Positions 6,078 to 29,864 of a stretch of 33,384 bases of DNA are shown one piece after another. The position numbers and the translations under genes were made by a program. The DNA lies in contig CAMWTO010000008.1 of NCBI GenBank assembly GCA_947177205.1, positions 1 to 33,384 on the forward strand, written 5' to 3'. How positions within the stretch are numbered: position 1 is the stretch's first letter; every line of letters starts with the position of its first letter. This DNA is from an uncultured Ruminococcus sp. Lineage in GTDB: Bacteria; Bacillota; Clostridia; Oscillospirales; Ruminococcaceae. The notes beneath the pieces are model-generated. The model was not told where the DNA came from. It worked only from the letters and a program-made list of their open reading frames with translations, and did no database searches.

Positions 6078-6400
6078 TAACCGAAATTCTGAAAAATACA
6101 GGCATTCCATTCCGGCGAACCCGGTTTTTAAAACCGCCGCCCGGAACATATGCCGTTTATGATGATGATATTGAAACGTCTGGCGGCGATCACCTGGTAG
6201 CTATCTATCATCATCAAATCACGATAGAATTGTATGAATCCGGGCTTGACGACGCAGCAGAAGAAAAAATCCAGACTATTCTTGCTGAAAAAGGTCTGCA
6301 ATTCGAGAAACAAGACCGGCTATGGCTACCCGATGAACAGCGTTATCAGGTCATTTATGAATTTAATTATTACAAAAAAAGGAGATTTTATCATGCCTGA
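6074..6400 (+). CDS. Tail completion / minor tail protein
   Basis: ATGA overlap with previous gene; ~108 aa; position before tail tube. Confidence 0.6.
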   Translation: MITEILKNTGIPFRRTRFLKPPPGTYAVYDDDIETSGGDHLVAIYHHQITIELYESGLDDAAEEKIQTILAEKGLQFEKQDRLWLPDEQRYQVIYEFNYYKKRRFYHA

Positions 6401-7007
6401 AATTAAAAGTACAGCAAAAAGAAGCAACAGAGTAATTACGTTGGGAAGTGGACACATCTATGTGAATCCGTACAGCGGAAAAATTCCGAATACCTACTCT
6501 GAAATTGCCGCATTCTGTGCGGAAGAACGCAGATTAGGCTACATCAAGGGCGGTGCATCCCTGGAATACAGCCAGGAGACATACGAAGAAAAAGATGACT
6601 TCGGCATTGTCCGTAAGATCATCACGACATCTGAAACGGCTGTCATGAAATTTGGCTTAATCACTTGGAACGGCGAAACACTGAAAACATTAATTGACCG
6701 CTGTAAGACAACTGAAATGCCCAAATCCGGAAACGATGCGGACAGTTCAAACGTCCGTGTGACAAAAATCGGTGGTGGCGGAAATGCACAGGGCGGTTAC
6801 TACCTGGCAGTTTTCCACCATGTTGACAAGATTGATGGTGATGTGTATGTTGCTATCGTCGGCAGAAACACCGCTGGGGCAACTCTCAGCTTCACAATGG
6901 ATGCCGGAACGCTGATCGAACCGGAATTTACGGCAATCCCAAGCGACGAGGATGGGACGTTGATCTTGATGTTTGAAGAGATCAAGGATGCTGATGAAGC
7001 AAATTAA
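6393..7007 (+). CDS. Major tail tube protein
   Basis: ATG at 6393 preceded by AAAAGGAG is preferred over track start 6234. Position and sequence (GSGHIYVNPYSGKIPNTYSEIAAFCAEERRLGYIKGGASLEYSQE). Confidence 0.75.
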   Translation: MPEIKSTAKRSNRVITLGSGHIYVNPYSGKIPNTYSEIAAFCAEERRLGYIKGGASLEYSQETYEEKDDFGIVRKIITTSETAVMKFGLITWNGETLKTLIDRCKTTEMPKSGNDADSSNVRVTKIGGGGNAQGGYYLAVFHHVDKIDGDVYVAIVGRNTAGATLSFTMDAGTLIEPEFTAIPSDEDGTLILMFEEIKDADEAN

Positions 7008-7646: not shown

Positions 7647-10600
7647 ATGGCAAGTCAGACCATCAAAGGCTTGACGGTACAAATCGGCGGAGATACGACA
7701 AAATTTAGTGCTGCGATCAAACATGCAGAAGACGAATCAAAAAAACTGAGCAGAGAACTGACTGACGTCAATAAACTGCTGAAAGCCGACCCTGGAAATA
7801 TCAACCTACTAGCACAGAAACAGCAGATTTTGACAGAGAAAGTCGCTGCCACCAAGGAAAAATTAGACACTCTGAAACAGGCAGAAGCCCAAGTACAGGC
7901 ACAATTTGAAAAAGGTGACATCACTGCCGAGCAATATCGGGCATTTCAGCGTGAAATTGCTTTTACCACGAATGAAATGCAAGGCTATGAGAAACAAATT
8001 GCAACAACAACACAAAAACTCACAGAAGCTAAAGCCAAAACTGATGAGGAAGTATCTTCTTTAGAGATACTTCGGGCAAAAATTTCTTTGCAAGAAAAAG
8101 AACTTTCAGGACTGAGAGAACAATACAAAAGCACTGTTATCGCAGAGGGCGAAAATTCCGAAAAAGCAAAGGAATTAAAATCACAATACGAAGCCTTAAA
8201 TGACAAGCTTACTGAAAGTAAGCAGAAAATGAACGAAGCTGAAACAGCAGCATCTTCTTTAGGAAAAGCAGAAACAGAAGTAGCCACACCACTGGAATCT
8301 TTAAAAAATACGATTTCTGAACAAGAAAAAGAACTTTCAGAATTAAAAGACCAATACAAGAGTGCTGTGCTTGCAGAGGGTGAAAATTCTGAAAAAGCAA
8401 AAGAGTTAAAAGCAGAGTATGATGCCTTGAACAGCAAGCTTGGCGAAAGTAAGCAGAAACTGAATGAAGCGGAAACTGCTGCCGCTTCACTCAGTCAGGC
8501 AGAAGAAGCAGCTCTTTCTCCTATGGATTCTCTGAAAAAGACAATTTCGGAACAGGAGAAAGAACTTTCTGCCCTGAAAGATGAATACAAGAATGTTGTC
8601 ATGGAGCAAGGGAAAGACTCTGATGCCGCCAGACAGCTTGAAAGTCAGTTTGATTCACTGAATCAGGAACTACAAGAAAATCAACAGAAGCTAAATGAGA
8701 TAGAGCAGGAAGCAAATCAACTCGGCAAGGCGGAAGAAAAAGCCTTGACTCCACTGGAATCCCTGAAAAAATCTATTGCCGATCAGGAAAAAGAGCTTGA
8801 CCAGTTGAACACGGAATACAAAAACGCCGTTGTGCAGTATGGCAAGAACTCGGACGAAGCAAAAGAATTAGCAACAAAAATAAAAAACTTGTCCGAGGAA
8901 CACCAGAACGAAAAAGCCAAATTGCAGGAAGCGGAAAAAGCCACTCAAAGTATCACAGCGACCGAAAAAACGCTGACAGAGCAATATGAAGATCAAAAAT
9001 CAGAGCTTAGTACATTAAAACAGCAATATATCAATGTTGCTGCACAATATGGTGAAAATTCCAAAGAAGCCAAAGCACTTGCCAAACAGATTGATTCTTT
9101 GTCTGGTGAACTTGCCGAAGAAGAAAAGAAAATCAAGCAAGCTGAGAGTTCCGCAGACAAGTTTGATAAAACTTTGTCTGATACTTCCAAAGATGCTGAC
9201 AAAGCGTCTGATAATGTTAAGGATTTAGGCAATTCTGCAAAAGATGCTGAAAGCAGTTTTAGCACCGCTGCCGTAGCTGTCGGCGAATTTATGGGCAATC
9301 TAGCTATCGAGCTATTACAGAGAGCAACAGAGCTGATCAAAAATTTTGCATCCGGGACAGTTGAAACAGGCGAGACATTTGAAGCTTCTATGTCCAAAGT
9401 GAAAGCGATTTCCGGAGCGACTACTTCTGAGCTTGCCGATCTGGACGCTGTCGCACGTCAATACGGACGTGATACACAGTTCAGTGCATCAGAGTGTGCA
9501 GATGCTTTGACCTACATGGCACTCGCCGGATGGAAAGTTGATGATATGATCAAGGCACTCCCCGGCGTGCTGAATCTGGCTGCCGCCTCTGAGATGGACT
9601 TGGCAAAGGCGTCCGATGTTGTCACAGACTATATGACAGCATTCGGTTGGGAAGCCAACAGAGCCGGAGAATTTGCTGACAAAATGGCTTTTGCTATGGC
9701 AAATTCCAACACTGACACAGAAATGTTAGGCGAAGCGTACAAGAACTGTGCCTCAACAGCAGACTCCCTACATTATAGTATGGAAGAAGTAACCGCCGCT
9801 ATCATGACAATGGCAAACGCTGGTGTCAAAGGCGGTGAATCTGGCACGGCACTCAATGCTGTCATGACTCGACTTGCAACAGACACTAAGGGCTGTGCTT
9901 CTGCATTAGCCGAATATGGTGTAAATATCTATGATGAAGAAGGGAATATGCAAAGCCTGTCCAGTATCCTGACTGGCATTTCAGATGTATGGAGCGATCT
10001 GACAGACGAACAGCAGGCAAATCTTGCGAAAATCATTGCCGGACAACAGCAATACTCCAGTTTCCAGACCATCATGAAAGGCTTGTCTGATACTGCCAAA
10101 GAATCCGGAAAATCATTTGAAGATTATACAGAAGCACTTCTGAATTGTGATGGTGCGGCTGACACTATGGCAAAAACCATGACGGATAATCTGCAAGGCG
10201 ATCTCAAAAAGATGGAATCTGCTTACCAGGATCTACAGCTTTCTATCTACGATGGTGTCAACAAGCCGTTGAGAGACGTTGTGCAAACCATCACAGATAA
10301 TGTTCTTCCGGCGTTCAGCAATCTCATCAAGGGTGCTGATGGAGCAGAGAAAGAAGTCAGCGAAGCAATTGGGAAACTAGCTTCTGTCGTTCTGAAAAAA
10401 ATCAAAGATTTATTGCCAAAAATTCTGCCAACGCTATCTAAAATCATACAACAGCTTGTTTTTAAATCAATCAGCAATATCAAGAATTTGGGATATATGC
10501 TTGCCAACAGCATCCAAGCACTGACAAAAGATATCATTCCTGCTTTTTCCAGAAACTTCCCGAAATTGATTGCAAGAATTTCCAGTCTTGTCAAGAAAAA

Positions 10601-12797
10601 TCTCCCTGCAATTGTAAACAGCCTGAAAAGAATTATCAAAAATCTGACTTCTGCTTTCAAGTCAGTTGTCTCAGACTTACTTCCAGAGCTATTAAAAACA
10701 GCTGTACAGCTTTTAACTGGCGGTATTCCTTTAATAGCATCGACAGCTTCGGAACTATTTGGAGCGATTATAGATGCTTTGCCGGACTTATTAGAATCTT
10801 TAGGAACGGCTTTGCTGCAAGTCATAGATGATATTACGGATTTCTTCTCTAAAGAAGAAAATCTGGATAAGCTGAAAGATACCGGTAAGAAATTACTGGA
10901 AAAGATTGCAGTCAGCATGAAAGAAAATACCGGGGTATTGAAAAAACAAATTCCCGGAATAATGAAGAAAATCCGGGATGAATTAAAGAATGCTGTTCCA
11001 AAAATGGCTTCTGTAGCAGATAAAATCATCACAAACATAACAGATGCCTTTGATGTAAGCGACAAGTGGCAGGATTTTAAAAATGCCTTTTCCACTATCT
11101 TTGCAGGCGTTCCAGAAAATTTAGAAGAAAAATACAGAATTTTTAAAGAAACAGCCACAGAATCTTTTGACAGAATTAAAAAGTCTGCTGAAAATCTAAA
11201 AAATGCTGTAAAAAATTTATTTGACCGTCTCAAGGAATTGTTAAACATCCATGCTGGTGACGCAAATGATGCTGTCAACGCAATTGTAGAAATTGCCGGG
11301 GCAATTGCATCTATTAGCGTTGATGCGGTTAGTAGGGCAATAGAAGCTATTTCTGATTTCTTATTATGGATCTCTGGTGATAGTTTTGGAGCTGAAACAA
11401 CAAGAGATGCTATTGTTGGCGTTGTCACGGCAATTGCGACGTTTGAGACATTGAACGGGGCAATCACTATTATACAAAATCTACCTAATTTGCTATCTGG
11501 TCTTTCCGGTGCTTTTACAGGTTTCTGGGGGGTAATCGCAGCAAATCCACTTTTAGCATTAATTTCATTATTGGTTGGTCTAATCGCTGTCTTAGGAAAT
11601 GTCATGAAAACAAGCGAAGAATGGCAAATTGGTTGGCAGATGATAAAGGATGCCTTTAATGACGCTGTAGATTCCTGGAAAGTCGGCGAAAAAACACTAG
11701 AAGAATTTGGCGGAAAAGTCTATGACTTTATTCAAGATTTCAAAAATTCATGGGAAGTGGGGGAAAAATCGCTTGAAAAATTTGGCGAGAGCATCTACGA
11801 TCTGATTCACGAAGAAATTCCGAGCAAATTTAAAGAATTAATCGAAAATGCGAAACAATGGGGAAATGACTTCTTGATGAACTTCGTAGAGGGTGTCAGT
11901 GAGAAAATCAATCCATTGCATGATACATTCGAGGAACTTGGTGGATGGATTTATGACAGATTCCATTTCTCTACGCCTGACAAGGGTGTTCTGGCGGATT
12001 CCGACACATGGTTTCCGGATATGATGCAGAATTTTGCAAATGGTATCCGTGAAAATTCAGTACTTGTCATGGATCAATTAGGAAATCTGTCAAACAACAT
12101 GGCAGAACAATCCCAAAATGCAGGTAATCGGTTCTTAAATGGTATATTAAGCCTGACAGAGAAATTACCTGGAAACTTAGGGATTCACCTGTCAAACGCT
12201 GTAAACCGTGTAATCGACTTTGGAAGAAATCTACATCAAAAGGCAGATTCTGCCGCATCTGACATGGTCAATGCTATCGAGAACAGAATCCGCAGTCTGC
12301 CAGATAAAATGACCGAAGTCGGACAAAATCTGGTTCAGGGATTATGGAACGGCATTCAAGGTATGAAAAACTGGGTATTATCTCAGATTTCGGGATTCTG
12401 TAACAATATTCTTGACAGCATTTTTGCAACATTCGATATTCACTCTCCGGCGAAAACAACTATCTACGTTGGCAAAATGCTGGATTATGGCATTGCTGGC
12501 GGTGTAACCGAAAATCAGGACGAACCCATTCAGGCTATTCGCCAAATGGCACACAATTTGTTAAACGAAACTGCGGTCATCCCGGAGCGGCTACCAGTAC
12601 AGCAAACGCAATTCCAGGCATCCACAATGCAAAACGTTGCAAATATCAGTACGCTGTCCGAAAAACTAGACAACATCTTACAAGCAATCCAAAACGGACA
12701 AGTTATCATGCTAGATGGTGACAAACTGGTTGGCGGCACAGCAAACCAAATGAACGCAGCACTCGGAAAAATTCAATTACTCTCGGCAAGGAGATAA
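7647..12797 (+). CDS. Tail tape measure protein (TP901-like core, N-terminal coiled-coil repeats)
   Basis: 1716 aa. Core TGETFEASMSKVKAISGATTSELADLDAVARQYGRDTQFSASECADALTYMALAGW. C-terminal FDIHSPAKTT. Confidence 0.92.
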   Translation: MASQTIKGLTVQIGGDTTKFSAAIKHAEDESKKLSRELTDVNKLLKADPGNINLLAQKQQILTEKVAATKEKLDTLKQAEAQVQAQFEKGDITAEQYRAFQREIAFTTNEMQGYEKQIATTTQKLTEAKAKTDEEVSSLEILRAKISLQEKELSGLREQYKSTVIAEGENSEKAKELKSQYEALNDKLTESKQKMNEAETAASSLGKAETEVATPLESLKNTISEQEKELSELKDQYKSAVLAEGENSEKAKELKAEYDALNSKLGESKQKLNEAETAAASLSQAEEAALSPMDSLKKTISEQEKELSALKDEYKNVVMEQGKDSDAARQLESQFDSLNQELQENQQKLNEIEQEANQLGKAEEKALTPLESLKKSIADQEKELDQLNTEYKNAVVQYGKNSDEAKELATKIKNLSEEHQNEKAKLQEAEKATQSITATEKTLTEQYEDQKSELSTLKQQYINVAAQYGENSKEAKALAKQIDSLSGELAEEEKKIKQAESSADKFDKTLSDTSKDADKASDNVKDLGNSAKDAESSFSTAAVAVGEFMGNLAIELLQRATELIKNFASGTVETGETFEASMSKVKAISGATTSELADLDAVARQYGRDTQFSASECADALTYMALAGWKVDDMIKALPGVLNLAAASEMDLAKASDVVTDYMTAFGWEANRAGEFADKMAFAMANSNTDTEMLGEAYKNCASTADSLHYSMEEVTAAIMTMANAGVKGGESGTALNAVMTRLATDTKGCASALAEYGVNIYDEEGNMQSLSSILTGISDVWSDLTDEQQANLAKIIAGQQQYSSFQTIMKGLSDTAKESGKSFEDYTEALLNCDGAADTMAKTMTDNLQGDLKKMESAYQDLQLSIYDGVNKPLRDVVQTITDNVLPAFSNLIKGADGAEKEVSEAIGKLASVVLKKIKDLLPKILPTLSKIIQQLVFKSISNIKNLGYMLANSIQALTKDIIPAFSRNFPKLIARISSLVKKNLPAIVNSLKRIIKNLTSAFKSVVSDLLPELLKTAVQLLTGGIPLIASTASELFGAIIDALPDLLESLGTALLQVIDDITDFFSKEENLDKLKDTGKKLLEKIAVSMKENTGVLKKQIPGIMKKIRDELKNAVPKMASVADKIITNITDAFDVSDKWQDFKNAFSTIFAGVPENLEEKYRIFKETATESFDRIKKSAENLKNAVKNLFDRLKELLNIHAGDANDAVNAIVEIAGAIASISVDAVSRAIEAISDFLLWISGDSFGAETTRDAIVGVVTAIATFETLNGAITIIQNLPNLLSGLSGAFTGFWGVIAANPLLALISLLVGLIAVLGNVMKTSEEWQIGWQMIKDAFNDAVDSWKVGEKTLEEFGGKVYDFIQDFKNSWEVGEKSLEKFGESIYDLIHEEIPSKFKELIENAKQWGNDFLMNFVEGVSEKINPLHDTFEELGGWIYDRFHFSTPDKGVLADSDTWFPDMMQNFANGIRENSVLVMDQLGNLSNNMAEQSQNAGNRFLNGILSLTEKLPGNLGIHLSNAVNRVIDFGRNLHQKADSAASDMVNAIENRIRSLPDKMTEVGQNLVQGLWNGIQGMKNWVLSQISGFCNNILDSIFATFDIHSPAKTTIYVGKMLDYGIAGGVTENQDEPIQAIRQMAHNLLNETAVIPERLPVQQTQFQASTMQNVANISTLSEKLDNILQAIQNGQVIMLDGDKLVGGTANQMNAALGKIQLLSARR
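8041..9165 (+). repeat. Five tandem ~75-aa coiled-coil repeats inside the tape measure gene
   Basis: Repeating pattern xLxSLKxxIxEQEKELSxLKxxYKxAVxxxGxNSxEAKELxxxxxxLxxxLxExxxKLxEAExxAxSLxxAEE, five imperfect copies. Confidence 0.75.
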
Positions 12798-12800
12798 ATT

Positions 12801-13529
12801 ATGATAAATGGCATTACATGGCATGGCAAGCATTCACTGGTGGATTTCGGTGCAACGCTGATCGCACGAGATACTAACGTTCCGATAAGAGACCGTGTGA
12901 CGGAGCGTGTTCCGTACAGCTCCGTTACCTATGATTTTACAGCACTGTTCGGGGCTGACAGCTACCCGGAACGAAAATTGCAGTATCAGTTTGTCATATC
13001 GGATGAACACGGTATGCCGATCCTGAAACAGCGTGTCAATGCGTTCCGGCACTGGCTGTATGACCCTAGTGAAAAGTCAAAGCTTTTTGACGACAGAGAA
13101 CAGAAATATTATTTTTATGCTGTTTGCATAGAATTTACCGAAAAATATACAAATGGTGTTATGGCTGAAATTACAGTCACCTTTGCGGCTGATCCGTTCA
13201 TGATTCCAGATGTTCCACCCGAACAGCTTGCCATCCCGGCATCTGACAGCCACTATCCGGATATTGATGGAGATGGATCTGTTACTAGTGAAGATGCGGC
13301 ATTGGTCTTATCAGCCGCCGCTAATCTAAATACCGGTCTGGAATCCGGTTTAACAGAAGAACAGGAACTGCTTGCCGACGCAGACCGTGATGGCAGGATC
13401 ACAGCAAACGATGCGGCATTGATACGAACATTTGCGACACAATGTGGGGCAGGTATCTGGGATAATGATCCTCAAGGATGGGTAGATTTCTTGAATCAGC
13501 AGACCGGCAGACTGTCAGAGGTGATTTAA
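12801..13529 (+). CDS. Distal tail protein (Dit) with C-terminal dockerin-like domain
   Basis: N-terminal INGITWHGKHSLVDFGATLIARDTNVP. C-terminal duplicated Ca-binding loops DIDGDGSVTSED and DADRDGRITAND. Confidence 0.75.
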   Translation: MINGITWHGKHSLVDFGATLIARDTNVPIRDRVTERVPYSSVTYDFTALFGADSYPERKLQYQFVISDEHGMPILKQRVNAFRHWLYDPSEKSKLFDDREQKYYFYAVCIEFTEKYTNGVMAEITVTFAADPFMIPDVPPEQLAIPASDSHYPDIDGDGSVTSEDAALVLSAAANLNTGLESGLTEEQELLADADRDGRITANDAALIRTFATQCGAGIWDNDPQGWVDFLNQQTGRLSEVI

Positions 13530-15478
13530 TGTATATTATCGAAATCGAAAATAATGGTGCAACGGAGCTACTGCATGAGATGAATCCCCAGAGTCTAAGG
13601 AGAGTTGCAAGCTGTGAGTTCACGGACGACTTAGAGTCCGTGGACTCGGCAGCCATCACAATTCATCCACAAAATCCGGCATATGCTAATCTGCACGAAC
13701 TAAAGACATTAATCCGCATTATCAATACGAAAACAGGAGAAACCGAGTTTGACGGACGAATTTTGCAGATTTCGGAAGAATCTATGGACAGCAACGGCGT
13801 TATCACAAAAAGTATCATCTGTGAGGGCGTATTAGGCTATTTATGCGATACTGTGCAGTTATATCATCACTACCAGGACACCGAAGTAACTGGTTTTCTA
13901 GCCAGTTTGCTGGATTATCATAATTATATCATGGGCTGGCACAGCCCAGAGCGTTGTATTCTACTGGGGGCTGTAACCGTACACGGAGACGCAAGCAAAA
14001 CTACGGCACAGCGGTCTACTATGGATGAGATCAAAGAGAATCTAATTTCAAGATTAGGTGGCATTCTGCGTACAAGGCGAAATGAAAATAATCAGATCTT
14101 GCTTGATTATTACAAAGAAGAAGATTTTGGTCAGATTTGTGATACAAAAATAGAAATTGCGGTCAATATGAAGTCAATTTCCTCCGGCACGGATGTAACT
14201 GGTATTATTACCCGGTTATACCCGTTAGGTTGTCAGATCAACAATGAAACAGCGGAACGGCTGACAATCTCTGGAGTGAACAACGGCTGTCCGTATATTG
14301 ATGATGAGGATGCTATTATAAAATATGGCGTAAAATGCGGCACTTACACTTGGGATGATGTTACTCTGCCTGAAAATCTTCTTGCCAAAGGCAGAGAATA
14401 TCTGAAACAAGCGTGCCAGATCAAGAAAAATTATCAGGCAGTTGTTTTAGACTTATCAACCATAGGCAAGGCAGCAGACAGCTTCCGGGCAGGGAATACT
14501 TACCGGTTTATCAACAAGCTAATCAATCTTGACGAATATCTCAGGATTATCCGCCGGACTGTCAACATTTTTCATCCATATCAACCAACTATTGAAATCG
14601 GCGACAAAATCCAGCCAATCACAGATGTTGTCACGCAAGCCAGAAATTATATAGAGTACGAAGTGCCAAAACAGCGTTCTGAAATCTTGCAACAGGCAAA
14701 AACAAACGCTTCCGCATTGATTACATCTGCAACACACGGACATGTTGTCGTCGAGCCGGAAGAAATCCTGATTATGAATACTGACAGCAAGGACACCGCA
14801 ACAAAAGTGTGGCGTTTTAACATTAACGGCTTAGGCTATAGCCATAGCAACGAACCGGGTGGAGCATATAACGGAGAATACGGATTAGCCATGACAATGG
14901 ACGGAGCAATTGTTGCCGATTATATCACGACTGGTACAATGTATGCTGATCGGATCAAGGGCGGTACGCTGACAGTCGGAGGCTACAACAACGATAACGG
15001 CGTGATCGAAGTTAGAAACAATTCAGGTGACGTAATATGTCTATTCGACCAGAACGGAGCTGACATCCTGGGGACGATCAAGACCCGTTCACTAGACGGC
15101 TACTGGCTGAATCTTGAAAACGGCAATCTAATCGGCGGTCAAGGTGATAATAGATATACTACTATCAATGCGACCGGACAAATCACGGATGCTGACAACA
15201 ATATCACCTATAACGGACTTTTGGTTGAATCTGATGCAATTGATTTTAGATGCAGATTATTTGCCATTAATGGTGGCACTGGGACTTCTGGAGGCATGAC
15301 ACTGATCGACAACCTGGAGCTAAGTTATTCTGATATAGAAGTAATCACAAATGCCTGGATTGACGAAAATGGCTATTTACAAACAGAACGAGCAACAATC
15401 AGCTATCTGTCAGGCTACAGCATTAACAGTACGACATATTATTTCACAAACGGTATCATGACAACCAGCCTGAACTAG
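13529..15478 (+). CDS. Tail-associated protein / tail endopeptidase-like (Tal)
   Basis: ATG at 13529 (TAATG overlap with Dit). MYIIEIENNGATELLHEMNPQSLRRVASCEFTDDLESVDSAAITIH typical of prophage tail endopeptidase-like proteins. Confidence 0.7.
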   Translation: MYIIEIENNGATELLHEMNPQSLRRVASCEFTDDLESVDSAAITIHPQNPAYANLHELKTLIRIINTKTGETEFDGRILQISEESMDSNGVITKSIICEGVLGYLCDTVQLYHHYQDTEVTGFLASLLDYHNYIMGWHSPERCILLGAVTVHGDASKTTAQRSTMDEIKENLISRLGGILRTRRNENNQILLDYYKEEDFGQICDTKIEIAVNMKSISSGTDVTGIITRLYPLGCQINNETAERLTISGVNNGCPYIDDEDAIIKYGVKCGTYTWDDVTLPENLLAKGREYLKQACQIKKNYQAVVLDLSTIGKAADSFRAGNTYRFINKLINLDEYLRIIRRTVNIFHPYQPTIEIGDKIQPITDVVTQARNYIEYEVPKQRSEILQQAKTNASALITSATHGHVVVEPEEILIMNTDSKDTATKVWRFNINGLGYSHSNEPGGAYNGEYGLAMTMDGAIVADYITTGTMYADRIKGGTLTVGGYNNDNGVIEVRNNSGDVICLFDQNGADILGTIKTRSLDGYWLNLENGNLIGGQGDNRYTTINATGQITDADNNITYNGLLVESDAIDFRCRLFAINGGTGTSGGMTLIDNLELSYSDIEVITNAWIDENGYLQTERATISYLSGYSINSTTYYFTNGIMTTSLN

Positions 15479-15494: not shown

Positions 15495-17309
15495 ATGTGG
15501 AAATTTATTGTTAAAAGTCAAAAAATTGAAACTCTAGAACATGATGTGATTGCTTCTGATCAGATTTCTTTTGTCACTCTAAACTTCATCTTTGAAGAGG
15601 ACTGGAGGAAATTCCACAAGGTTGTGCAGTTTTCACAGTGCAATGAAACATACAATCTTGTGCTTGGTACAGATGGCACTTCCTGTCTTCTTCCATCAGA
15701 GTTACGTTCTGGTATGGTAAAAATGTCTGTGTTTGGCTACGATCCTGCAAATATGTCTGGACTTCGTGCGACAACTGTTCCGGTAATTTTGCATATTCGT
15801 CCGTCTGGATTTGTACAGGACAGTATTTCACCTGTACCACCAACGCCGGATTTGTATCAGCAACTATTAGCCGAAATGGAAAAGAAAATTGCTGAAATGC
15901 CTGGCGGTTCTGCCGGGGAATCTGGCAAGGACGGAGCAGACGGCTTGTCAGCCTATGAAATCGCCGTCCAGAACGGTTTTACAGGTTCTGCGAGCGATTG
16001 GCTGGCAAGTTTACAGGGTGAAAAGGGCGACAAGGGTGATCCTGGTGAACAAGGCATTCAGGGAATCCCCGGAGAAAAAGGAAACCCCGGAGAGCGTGGC
16101 TTACAAGGTGAAAAGGGTGAGAAAGGTGATCCGGGCGAACCAGGCAAACAGGGTGAAAAGGGCGATCCCGGAGAACCCGGACAGCAAGGCATCCAAGGAA
16201 TCCCCGGAAAAAAGGGCGAACCTGGTGAGAACGGCAAAGATGGTGCTGATGGATTCAGTCCAGTTGTCACCACAGAGCAGACCAACGACGGAGCAATTAT
16301 TATGATCACGGACGCAATCGGTGTCCATACTGTCACGCTGCATAATGGACTGGATGGGAAAGATGGTCAGGACGGACAAGCCGGAACACTTGACAGCGTG
16401 GATTTGACGAATTATGCTACAATTGACTATGTAGAAGAATTAACTGCAAATATTAGTAAAACATCACATACACATGTCAATTTTACAACGCTCAACTCAC
16501 TGAGTATCAATGATATTGATACATGGAATCTTGCTGCTTCCAAGGCACATTGGCATAAAAATGCCGAAATTCTGGACACTCTGACAGCAGACATGATTGC
16601 AAGATGGAATCAGACAGCAGAGCAATTAGCTGATACTGCTACAGTGATTGCTCAGAATCTGACAACGATGGGCGTTCCGGCTACAGCAGATGAGAATCTG
16701 AATACGCTAGCCGCAAAAATACTGGAAATACCACAGGATGGGACTTCTTCACCGGTAGGCAAAGAAATCCTGCTGAATACGCTGGACTTTTCCAGTTCGG
16801 AAGAAACTCTGGAAAATTATGCAAATTCTATCTATATCTATGAATCTTCCGCAGAAAATTTCCAGACACTTGCTGAAATTGTCGATAAATGGGGCGGTGT
16901 AGCATCCAATAATAATTTTGTCAGCAAAACAAATCCAAATTTCGGAATCAACATGGCGAACTGGTCGGAAACGAATATTGACACTGGAATTTTGTTTGCT
17001 CATAAGCTGGAATTATTCACAGGACGATTACTATTTTCCATCTATGCAAGCTTTTCTAACTGGACGAATCAGACCTTGCATTTTCATCTGATCCAGGCTG
17101 AAACGCCGGAGCAGGCTATCGAAAAAGCACTTGCCGGAGAGTATGTGCAGAGTGCAGACTATACAATGGCAGGAGCTATCGCACAGACGGATGATATTTT
17201 CGCATTCGGATCTGTATCAGCTGGGAACTATTATTTGTACATTGATGGTACGTCAAAAGGCGATAATTCTAATTTCACATATGCAAAAATTGAATATCTG
17301 AATTACTAA
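15495..17309 (+). CDS. Baseplate upper / tail fibre protein with collagen-like region
   Basis: N-terminal BppU-like sequence. Gly-X-Y repeats GEKGDKGDPGEQGIQGIPGEKGNPGERG... Unique C-terminal domain. Confidence 0.75.
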   Translation: MWKFIVKSQKIETLEHDVIASDQISFVTLNFIFEEDWRKFHKVVQFSQCNETYNLVLGTDGTSCLLPSELRSGMVKMSVFGYDPANMSGLRATTVPVILHIRPSGFVQDSISPVPPTPDLYQQLLAEMEKKIAEMPGGSAGESGKDGADGLSAYEIAVQNGFTGSASDWLASLQGEKGDKGDPGEQGIQGIPGEKGNPGERGLQGEKGEKGDPGEPGKQGEKGDPGEPGQQGIQGIPGKKGEPGENGKDGADGFSPVVTTEQTNDGAIIMITDAIGVHTVTLHNGLDGKDGQDGQAGTLDSVDLTNYATIDYVEELTANISKTSHTHVNFTTLNSLSINDIDTWNLAASKAHWHKNAEILDTLTADMIARWNQTAEQLADTATVIAQNLTTMGVPATADENLNTLAAKILEIPQDGTSSPVGKEILLNTLDFSSSEETLENYANSIYIYESSAENFQTLAEIVDKWGGVASNNNFVSKTNPNFGINMANWSETNIDTGILFAHKLELFTGRLLFSIYASFSNWTNQTLHFHLIQAETPEQAIEKALAGEYVQSADYTMAGAIAQTDDIFAFGSVSAGNYYLYIDGTSKGDNSNFTYAKIEYLNY

Positions 17310-18760: not shown

Positions 18761-19339
18761 TTACAGACCATATTCCTTAACTTTCCTGTAGAACCTGTTT
18801 GGCTTCATGCCGAGTTTCTGCATGGTTCTTTTCGCCGTCTGCTTTCCCTCACGCCACAGTTTACACTCCATCTGTAAAGCTGTCAGATCAACTGGAATTG
18901 GTTGCCGTCCTTTGTACTTACCGGCTGCCTTTGCAATGGCAATACCTTCACGCTGACGCTCTCGAAGTGTTTCACGTTCCAACTCTGCCAATCCTGCGAA
19001 CACAGTTAGGATAAATCTGCCCTGTGGTGTAGTAGTATCAAGTTGCTCTCTCAGACTAATGATTTCCACGCCTTTCCCTTGAAGTTCATCCACAAGCCGG
19101 AGCATGTCGGCACTACTCCTGGCAAGCCTGGCATACTCACTGACTACCAGGACATCCCCATCACGAACATAGTCCAACATTTTCTTTAGCTCCGGACGGT
19201 CAGTGTTCTTGCCACTACACTTATCAATGAAGATCTTATGCATTGGTTTGCCAAAATTTTCTAATGCTTTCAGTTGTCTGGCTTCATTCTGGTCGACACT
19301 GGATACCCGAACATAGCCTATGTATGTTTTTTCTTTCAT
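18761..19339 (-). CDS. Serine recombinase (resolvase/invertase family)
   Basis: MKEKTYIGYVRVSSVDQNEARQLKAL...VVSEYARLARSSADMLRLVDEL...GRFILTVFAGLAELERETLRERQREGI; C-terminal HTH. Start 19339 more likely than 19366. Confidence 0.9.
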   Translation of the reverse strand: MKEKTYIGYVRVSSVDQNEARQLKALENFGKPMHKIFIDKCSGKNTDRPELKKMLDYVRDGDVLVVSEYARLARSSADMLRLVDELQGKGVEIISLREQLDTTTPQGRFILTVFAGLAELERETLRERQREGIAIAKAAGKYKGRQPIPVDLTALQMECKLWREGKQTAKRTMQKLGMKPNRFYRKVKEYGL

Positions 19340-19482
19340 GGACTCACCAACCCTCAGTTTTTTCATAATATAAGTCTAACATATTTCAAAATATATGTCA
19401 ATAGGAAACCTCAACTTATATAAAATGATAATCAAAAAATTTGTGGGGTCTACACAAATAGCACACGAAAGAGCTATTGATT

Positions 19483-28817: not shown

Positions 28818-29864
28818 ATGATGACATTTGCACAACTCGGACAACTGTCTTTGCAAATGCAGATGCTTTATGTGCAGGGAGTCAATTCCGGATCAAAGCC
28901 GGATGATCCTGTAGAATTGCCGGACAACGACCTGACATTTTCAGCTTCGGAATTTCCTGAAACACCCACAATAAAAATCTGTGCCGAAGCGTTCTTGAAT
29001 CTAAAAAAGTACACAGTAAGGCAAAGCACCTATCATAGATATATACGTTGTTTTAGAAATTCTGTGTTGCCATTCTTCGGAGATATGCAGTTAAATGCTG
29101 TCAGCGGAAAAGTGGTGCAAGAATTTGTCAATGCCATGCTCCGGCAAGGTATGAATCCGAAAGCGATTAAATATTGTGTGACGATGTTGAAAAGCGTTTT
29201 GTTGTGTGCTGAAGCTGATGGAATTATTACAATGCCGGTAATTCGCCCAAACTATCCGAAACAGTGCAAGCAGGAACGTCCGATTTTGTCCGATGAAGAT
29301 TTCAACAGGTTGAGTGAATATCTATTACAAGAAGGCAGCTCCATTTCAACGGCATTGCTGATTGTCATGCACACCGGAATCAGACTCGGCGAAGCGTGTG
29401 CCTTGCGGTGGTCTGATATGGATTTTAAGACCAACAGCATTTACATCCGGTACAGCGTCAAGCGTTACTACATACCGGAAGAAAGGCGAACCGTTTGCGA
29501 ACTCGGAGAACCAAAGACACTCAAGAGCAAACGGCGGATCTATATTTCAAAATGGCTTGTTGATGTTCTGAAACAGCGTCGGGAAACGGGTTTCATCTGC
29601 ACTGGAGTTGACAGATTTTGCAATCCCGAAACCATGCGAAACGCATTGAACAGGCGACTGAAGCAATTGAATATTCCGCACATCAGATTCCATGATTTGC
29701 GACACGGATTCGCTACCAGGGCTATCAATGGTGCAGGAGTCGATCCGAAGACGGTCGCAGAGATTTTGGGACACGAACACTGCGACATCACACTGGATAT
29801 TTACACTTCTTGCACGGCACAGATGCAAGTTGAAGCTATGGAAAAAATTCAAAAAATGAAATGA
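28818..29864 (+). CDS. int: Tyrosine recombinase integrase
   Basis: MHTGIRLGEACALRWSDMD; HIRFHDLRHGFATRAINGAGVDPKTVAEILGHEHCDITLDIYTSC. Confidence 0.92.
   Translation: MMTFAQLGQLSLQMQMLYVQGVNSGSKPDDPVELPDNDLTFSASEFPETPTIKICAEAFLNLKKYTVRQSTYHRYIRCFRNSVLPFFGDMQLNAVSGKVVQEFVNAMLRQGMNPKAIKYCVTMLKSVLLCAEADGIITMPVIRPNYPKQCKQERPILSDEDFNRLSEYLLQEGSSISTALLIVMHTGIRLGEACALRWSDMDFKTNSIYIRYSVKRYYIPEERRTVCELGEPKTLKSKRRIYISKWLVDVLKQRRETGFICTGVDRFCNPETMRNALNRRLKQLNIPHIRFHDLRHGFATRAINGAGVDPKTVAEILGHEHCDITLDIYTSCTAQMQVEAMEKIQKMK

Follow-up and report, generated by a model that had tools for sequence, protein, structure and literature searches.

Fibre-digesting Ruminococcus cells fasten enzymes and scaffolds to surface sockets, the cohesins, by means of plugs, the dockerins. 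In Ruminococcus flavefaciens FD-1, the group-4 dockerins of ScaB, CttA, ScaF, ScaH, ScaI and a peptidase bind ScaE, a wall cohesin anchored by sortase (PMC5301203). In the symmetric members of this group the recognition dyads, at positions 11/12 and 50/51, are Gly-Arg; mutating both impairs cohesin binding in FD-1 dockerins (PMC5301203). On the phage side, evolved distal tail (Dit) proteins with carbohydrate-binding modules are known (PMC7291167). In siphophages of lactic acid bacteria such proteins carry, besides the Dit ring domain, an extra module for binding on the periphery of the tail; this carbohydrate-binding module is set into a galectin-domain loop (PMC7291167, PMC10688798). The Dit of phage SPP1 (gp19.1, PDB 2x8k) pairs an N-terminal ring domain with a galectin-like C-terminal domain (PMC7291167).

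The Dit analyzed here shares the ring domain with these proteins and, like the evolved Dits, adds a binding module to it. Unlike them, it shows no galectin domain and carries in its place a dockerin, a protein-protein module, found with cohesin-bearing hosts. It is a variant of the decorated-Dit theme with an unusual partner system. In the literature searched, which comprised few subscription papers and no bioRxiv preprints, we found neither a dockerin acting as a host-tuned virion adhesin nor a receptor-binding role for a cohesin-dockerin pair in phages. Papers that name a dockerin in connection with a phage are about different proteins, and the main text of the FD-1 dockerin survey (PMC2930009) makes no mention of phage proteins.

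A distal tail protein with a C-terminal dockerin module

The window, that is, the whole stretch of DNA analyzed, is an entire 33.4-kb contig (C8) of a 2.23-Mb metagenome-assembled genome (MAG) that has Ruminococcus as its near relatives. The contig encodes a temperate siphophage with terminase, portal, capsid, tape measure, Dit, Tal, collagen-repeat fibre, holin, lysozyme and integrase. The Dit gene (12801..13529, + strand, 242 aa) lies between the tape measure gene upstream (7647-12797) and a Tal-like gene downstream (13478-15478), the order required of a siphophage Dit. A collagen-repeat fibre-like protein, possibly a second adhesin, is encoded downstream of Tal (15495-17309), and a putative tail tube protein (6234-7007) matches the Ig-domain phage family phrog_2175. 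The same contig holds both a serine recombinase with a Resolvase domain (18764-19366, - strand) and a tyrosine integrase (28818-29861, + strand).

The first-pass annotation had described a Dit-like protein bearing a dockerin, and both parts hold. The N-terminal ring domain (aa 1-136; 12801..13208, +) matches the distal tail protein family phrog_33 over aa 1-134 (E 5.3e-11). An AlphaFold2 model of the monomer, built with 48 homologues as input (mean pLDDT 90.7), has SPP1 Dit 2x8k as its top PDB match in Foldseek (E 1.1e-7, 138 columns). The proposed search with dockerin models was positive: Pfam Dockerin_1 (PF00404) matches aa 153-208 with 34.3 bits against a gathering cut-off of 22.9 (E 2.8e-8). 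The dockerin module itself spans aa 153-212 (13257..13436, +), and its best dockerin match in Foldseek is 8ajy_B, the R. flavefaciens ScaH dockerin solved with a cohesin (TMt 0.80, rmsd 1.8). In the model it forms a separate C-terminal domain outside the Dit ring domain.

The first calcium loop (aa 154-165, DIDGDGSVTSED; 13260..13295, +) contains the recognition dyad S163-E164 and the second (aa 193-204, DADRDGRITAND; 13377..13412, +) the dyad A202-N203, both dyads being placed by alignment and from PMC5301203. In either loop, ligand positions 1 and 12 are Asp in 48/48 homologous Dits, and each loop is followed by a modelled helix (aa 163-177 and 202-216). Pfam, fold and homologues together rule out a chance motif. 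The two calcium-loop segments quoted in the first-pass annotation are indeed present, at aa 154-174 (13260-13322) and aa 193-213 (13377-13439). The interval it gave for the domain, 13243-13440, covers the right region from a start that is out of the reading frame. It had the protein ending with these loops, but a phage-specific tail of about 30 residues follows (aa 213-242; 13437..13526, +), which bears a conserved GW..F motif and, at aa 224-235, a predicted helix.

Past residue 136 the model contains the dockerin helices and this C-terminal helix, with no second beta-sandwich, so the usual galectin-like domain is absent. Pfam finds no carbohydrate-binding module in the protein. The arrangement that characterizes evolved Dits, a carbohydrate-binding module inserted in a galectin domain, is therefore not what Pfam and the model reveal here.

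In sequence and fold, the nearest counterparts of the module are the R. flavefaciens dockerins of the symmetric group-4 (type III) kind and not the clostridial type I enzyme dockerins, a refinement of the first-pass annotation, which had seen the spacing of type I. Like the group-4 dockerins (ScaH, PDB 8ajy; PMC5301203), it has two symmetric calcium repeats, matches ScaH without gaps and bears its dyads at the same places, with host-matched residues; internal symmetry and recognition positions are common to phage dockerins and ScaE-binding dockerins. Unlike them, it is part of a virion protein, opens with PD instead of GD, and has an SGLT.EQ linker and the GW..F tail, and its dyads are SE and AN where group-4 has GR.

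Host cohesins and the recognition face

The screen for host cohesins proposed in the first-pass annotation returned two cohesin loci in the window's MAG, along with 76 dockerin matches. More broadly, cohesins above the Pfam cut-off occur in 26/28 genomes with phage dockerins and in 129/392 other sampled family members (Fisher p 2e-10), a difference confounded by kinship. One of the cohesin-less exceptions, a "Lachnospiraceae" MAG (RGIG3774) with a Dit-dockerin phage (L113), contains no other dockerin match and no cohesin, and the phage contig is thus probably stray or misbinned. A search with PF00963, which is weak at detecting such cohesins, turned up none of the ScaE type in the window's MAG, a genome 88.5% complete. 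The single-cohesin proteins of about 300 aa in relatives were considered as ScaE and set aside, as the one in FD-1 is ScaC and the others look alike. Two lipoprotein-like genes carry a partial cohesin at their end (L049:24-1073 on G000:C118, and L406:1255-2193); in the former, from the window's MAG, the cohesin match continues beyond in-frame stops.

For 16 host genomes we took 7-10 group-4-like dockerins apiece and set 17 phage dockerins against them, phage and host kinship being controlled only in part in these comparisons. Dyad identity was 0.44 with the own host and 0.22 with other hosts (permutation p 5e-5). A phage with GS/GS resides in a GS/GS host (G402) and one with SV/SV in an SV host (G416); the FD-1 phage has NR/GR, and half of the sampled FD-1 dockerins are GR/GR. 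A scan of every dockerin position located the own-host excess at 14, 15, 18, 24, 25 and 28 and at their equivalents 39 residues on, and found none in the linker; the excess correlates between the two repeats (Pearson 0.81). At these 12 recognition positions, placed symmetrically about the known dyads, phage dockerins were 0.53 identical to those of their own host, 0.29 to those of other hosts and 0.26 to other phages. At the remaining positions the order was reversed, with 0.60 between phages, 0.43 with the own host and 0.42 with other hosts. The association at the recognition positions persisted when Dit kinship and the rest of the dockerin were controlled for (partial Mantel r 0.69, p 2e-4).

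Because the recognition set had been chosen after inspecting the 16 genomes, it was fixed and then tested on seven new ones. Identity there was 0.55 with the own host against 0.24 with the others, the best of all 5,040 pairings (exact p 0.0002), and 0.44 against 0.41 at non-recognition positions. Positions picked from host dockerins alone gave approximately the same set, and with them the own host ranked first for 11/24 phages, where one would be expected. For the window's phage, the own host came only fourth of 23, and three phages (L047, L123, L135) did not match their own hosts. Non-recognition positions also show a small own-host excess (0.43 vs 0.41, p 0.0004). The contact face of the phage dockerin thus resembles the dockerins of its own host, which suggests, at the level of sequence, that cellulosome cohesins serve as receptor.

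What the dockerin may do for the phage

We consider it likely that the C-terminal half of this Dit is a receptor-binding dockerin tuned to host cohesins, most probably of the wall-anchored ScaE type. As part of the same reading, the module would be a cassette long present in phages that has been shuffled from one virion protein to another. Dit is hexameric in known siphophages; if this one is too, six calcium-dependent cohesin-binding modules would be displayed around the tail tip. The virion would plug them into cohesins exposed on Ruminococcus cells, the likeliest partner being the cell-wall-anchored ScaE-type cohesin used by the host's own group-4 dockerins. Attachment would then mimic the anchoring step of cellulosome assembly, and the cohesin-facing residues of the cassette would have been adjusted anew in each host species. 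We infer that binding takes place physically, that ScaE is the partner and that the module acts in adsorption. The first-pass proposal that the baseplate may dock onto host cohesins finds good support in sequence evidence, in the cohesin-bearing hosts and in the host-matched face on held-out genomes. Nothing that the annotation had named as refuting it turned up: the modelled domain looks like a dockerin, it stands apart from the Dit ring domain, and the host genome encodes cohesins.

The main rival is that the dockerin binds host cohesins as an auxiliary attachment to cellulosomes and not as the infection receptor: virions would park on released or fibre-bound cellulosomes, near growing hosts, and entry would be triggered by another protein. 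We regard this as rather unlikely; all the evidence for a host-matched face fits it as well. Scaffoldins away from the wall have cohesins too, the phage has a separate collagen-repeat fibre, and evolved Dits are often auxiliary binders (PMC7291167). What points instead to the cell surface is that the face matches group-4-like dockerins, and in FD-1 the members of this group bind ScaE, the cohesin anchored to the wall.

Readings in which no host cohesin is bound fare far worse. The module could serve the baseplate structurally, as a spacer or as the calcium-dependent switch that the first-pass annotation offered as a second role; its calcium ligands are strictly conserved and its C-terminal helix could pack against the baseplate. 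Such a part would have no need for its most variable surface to track the cohesin-recognition residues of the host, and its role would leave unexplained why the cassette is present in unrelated virion proteins, so that we give this idea very little weight. Still less probable is a link between two phage proteins inside the virion through a phage-encoded cohesin. Cohesin-dockerin pairs do build complexes in bacteria and an Ig-like domain protein is encoded upstream of Dit, but no cohesin was found among the 18 window proteins scanned, and here again the recognition face tracks the host. It is about as improbable as the switch that the module is a recently captured host dockerin without selected function, or an assembly artefact. 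The resemblance to the own host is real, and each host offers 55-129 dockerins to copy from. Yet outside the recognition positions 24/24 phage dockerins resemble some other phage more closely than the own host. A tree built on 53 non-recognition columns sets 30 phage dockerins, as a single clade, apart from 69 host dockerins (SH-aLRT 95; inner forks weak on so few columns), and the own-host match is therefore not a matter of recent capture. The phage dockerin would work like a group-4 dockerin without being a member of that group, as its clade stands apart from the host dockerins. Dit and non-Dit dockerins are intermixed within the phage clade. Phage modules open with PD and keep the GW..F tail, whereas host modules open with GD and the tail is missing after all 60 host domains inspected; together with the non-recognition positions, the tree rules out recent capture. 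Compared with a near relative, the module has a low dN/dS, based on few changes, which argues against a functionless capture. An assembly chimera is ruled out in turn, as Dit-dockerins occur in many independent contigs, in isolate genomes and in a second, distinct phage of the same MAG (C26; L044:3161-3892), whose Dit is 68% identical to that of the window.

Returning to the receptor-binding reading, we think it probable, if with somewhat less assurance, that a whole guild of Ruminococcus phages attaches by mimicking the wall-anchoring dockerin, that the cohesin-dockerin code helps set host range and that phage pressure may have diversified this code, which keeps cellulosomes species-specific. 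If true, this would point to a candidate receptor for phages that infect major fibre-degrading bacteria of the rumen, and a sequence rule of about 12 residues may predict phage host range. Escape from phages would also be an independent reason for the diversified specificities of cohesins and dockerins.

Spread of the cassette among phages

Pattern scans recovered the cassette (about 85 aa, roughly PD..DGDG ... SGLT.EQ ... D..DG ... GW..F) at 56 IMG/VR loci and 39 genome loci, most of them full-length Dit-dockerins, and about 50 distinct Dit-dockerins are now recognized in phages and prophages of Ruminococcus. Nearly all loci with a named host come from this genus, among them those of R. flavefaciens FD-1 (L118, a prophage on Contig76) and SAb67 (L134). 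The cassette is absent from 50,697 phage records, whose nearest Dits come mostly from Streptococcus and Latilactobacillus phages and match only aa 1-142.

Besides Dit, the cassette occurs in at least four further types of virion protein. It is found in a protein of about 204 aa with a small beta-sandwich (phrog_1084; L099, L100, L102, L103, L135), in the middle of a 685-aa member of the phrog_13879 family (L098), in phrog_1220-type and phrog_18805-type virion proteins (L104, L127, L128, L130) and in a coiled-coil protein (L136). A BppU-like identity of the small beta-sandwich of the 204-aa proteins found no support in Foldseek, and their position in the virion is putative. A single dockerin-bearing protein was seen per locus in 36/36 loci, each covering the tail region of a genome. 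One Dit-dockerin (L096:6001-6864) has an insertion of about 55 residues between its two dockerin repeats. Finally, large viral contigs of 180 kb (L105), 25 kb (L106) and 152 kb (L107) encode proteins of about 100 aa in which part of a dockerin-like cassette is present, which suggests that the module has also reached large phages.
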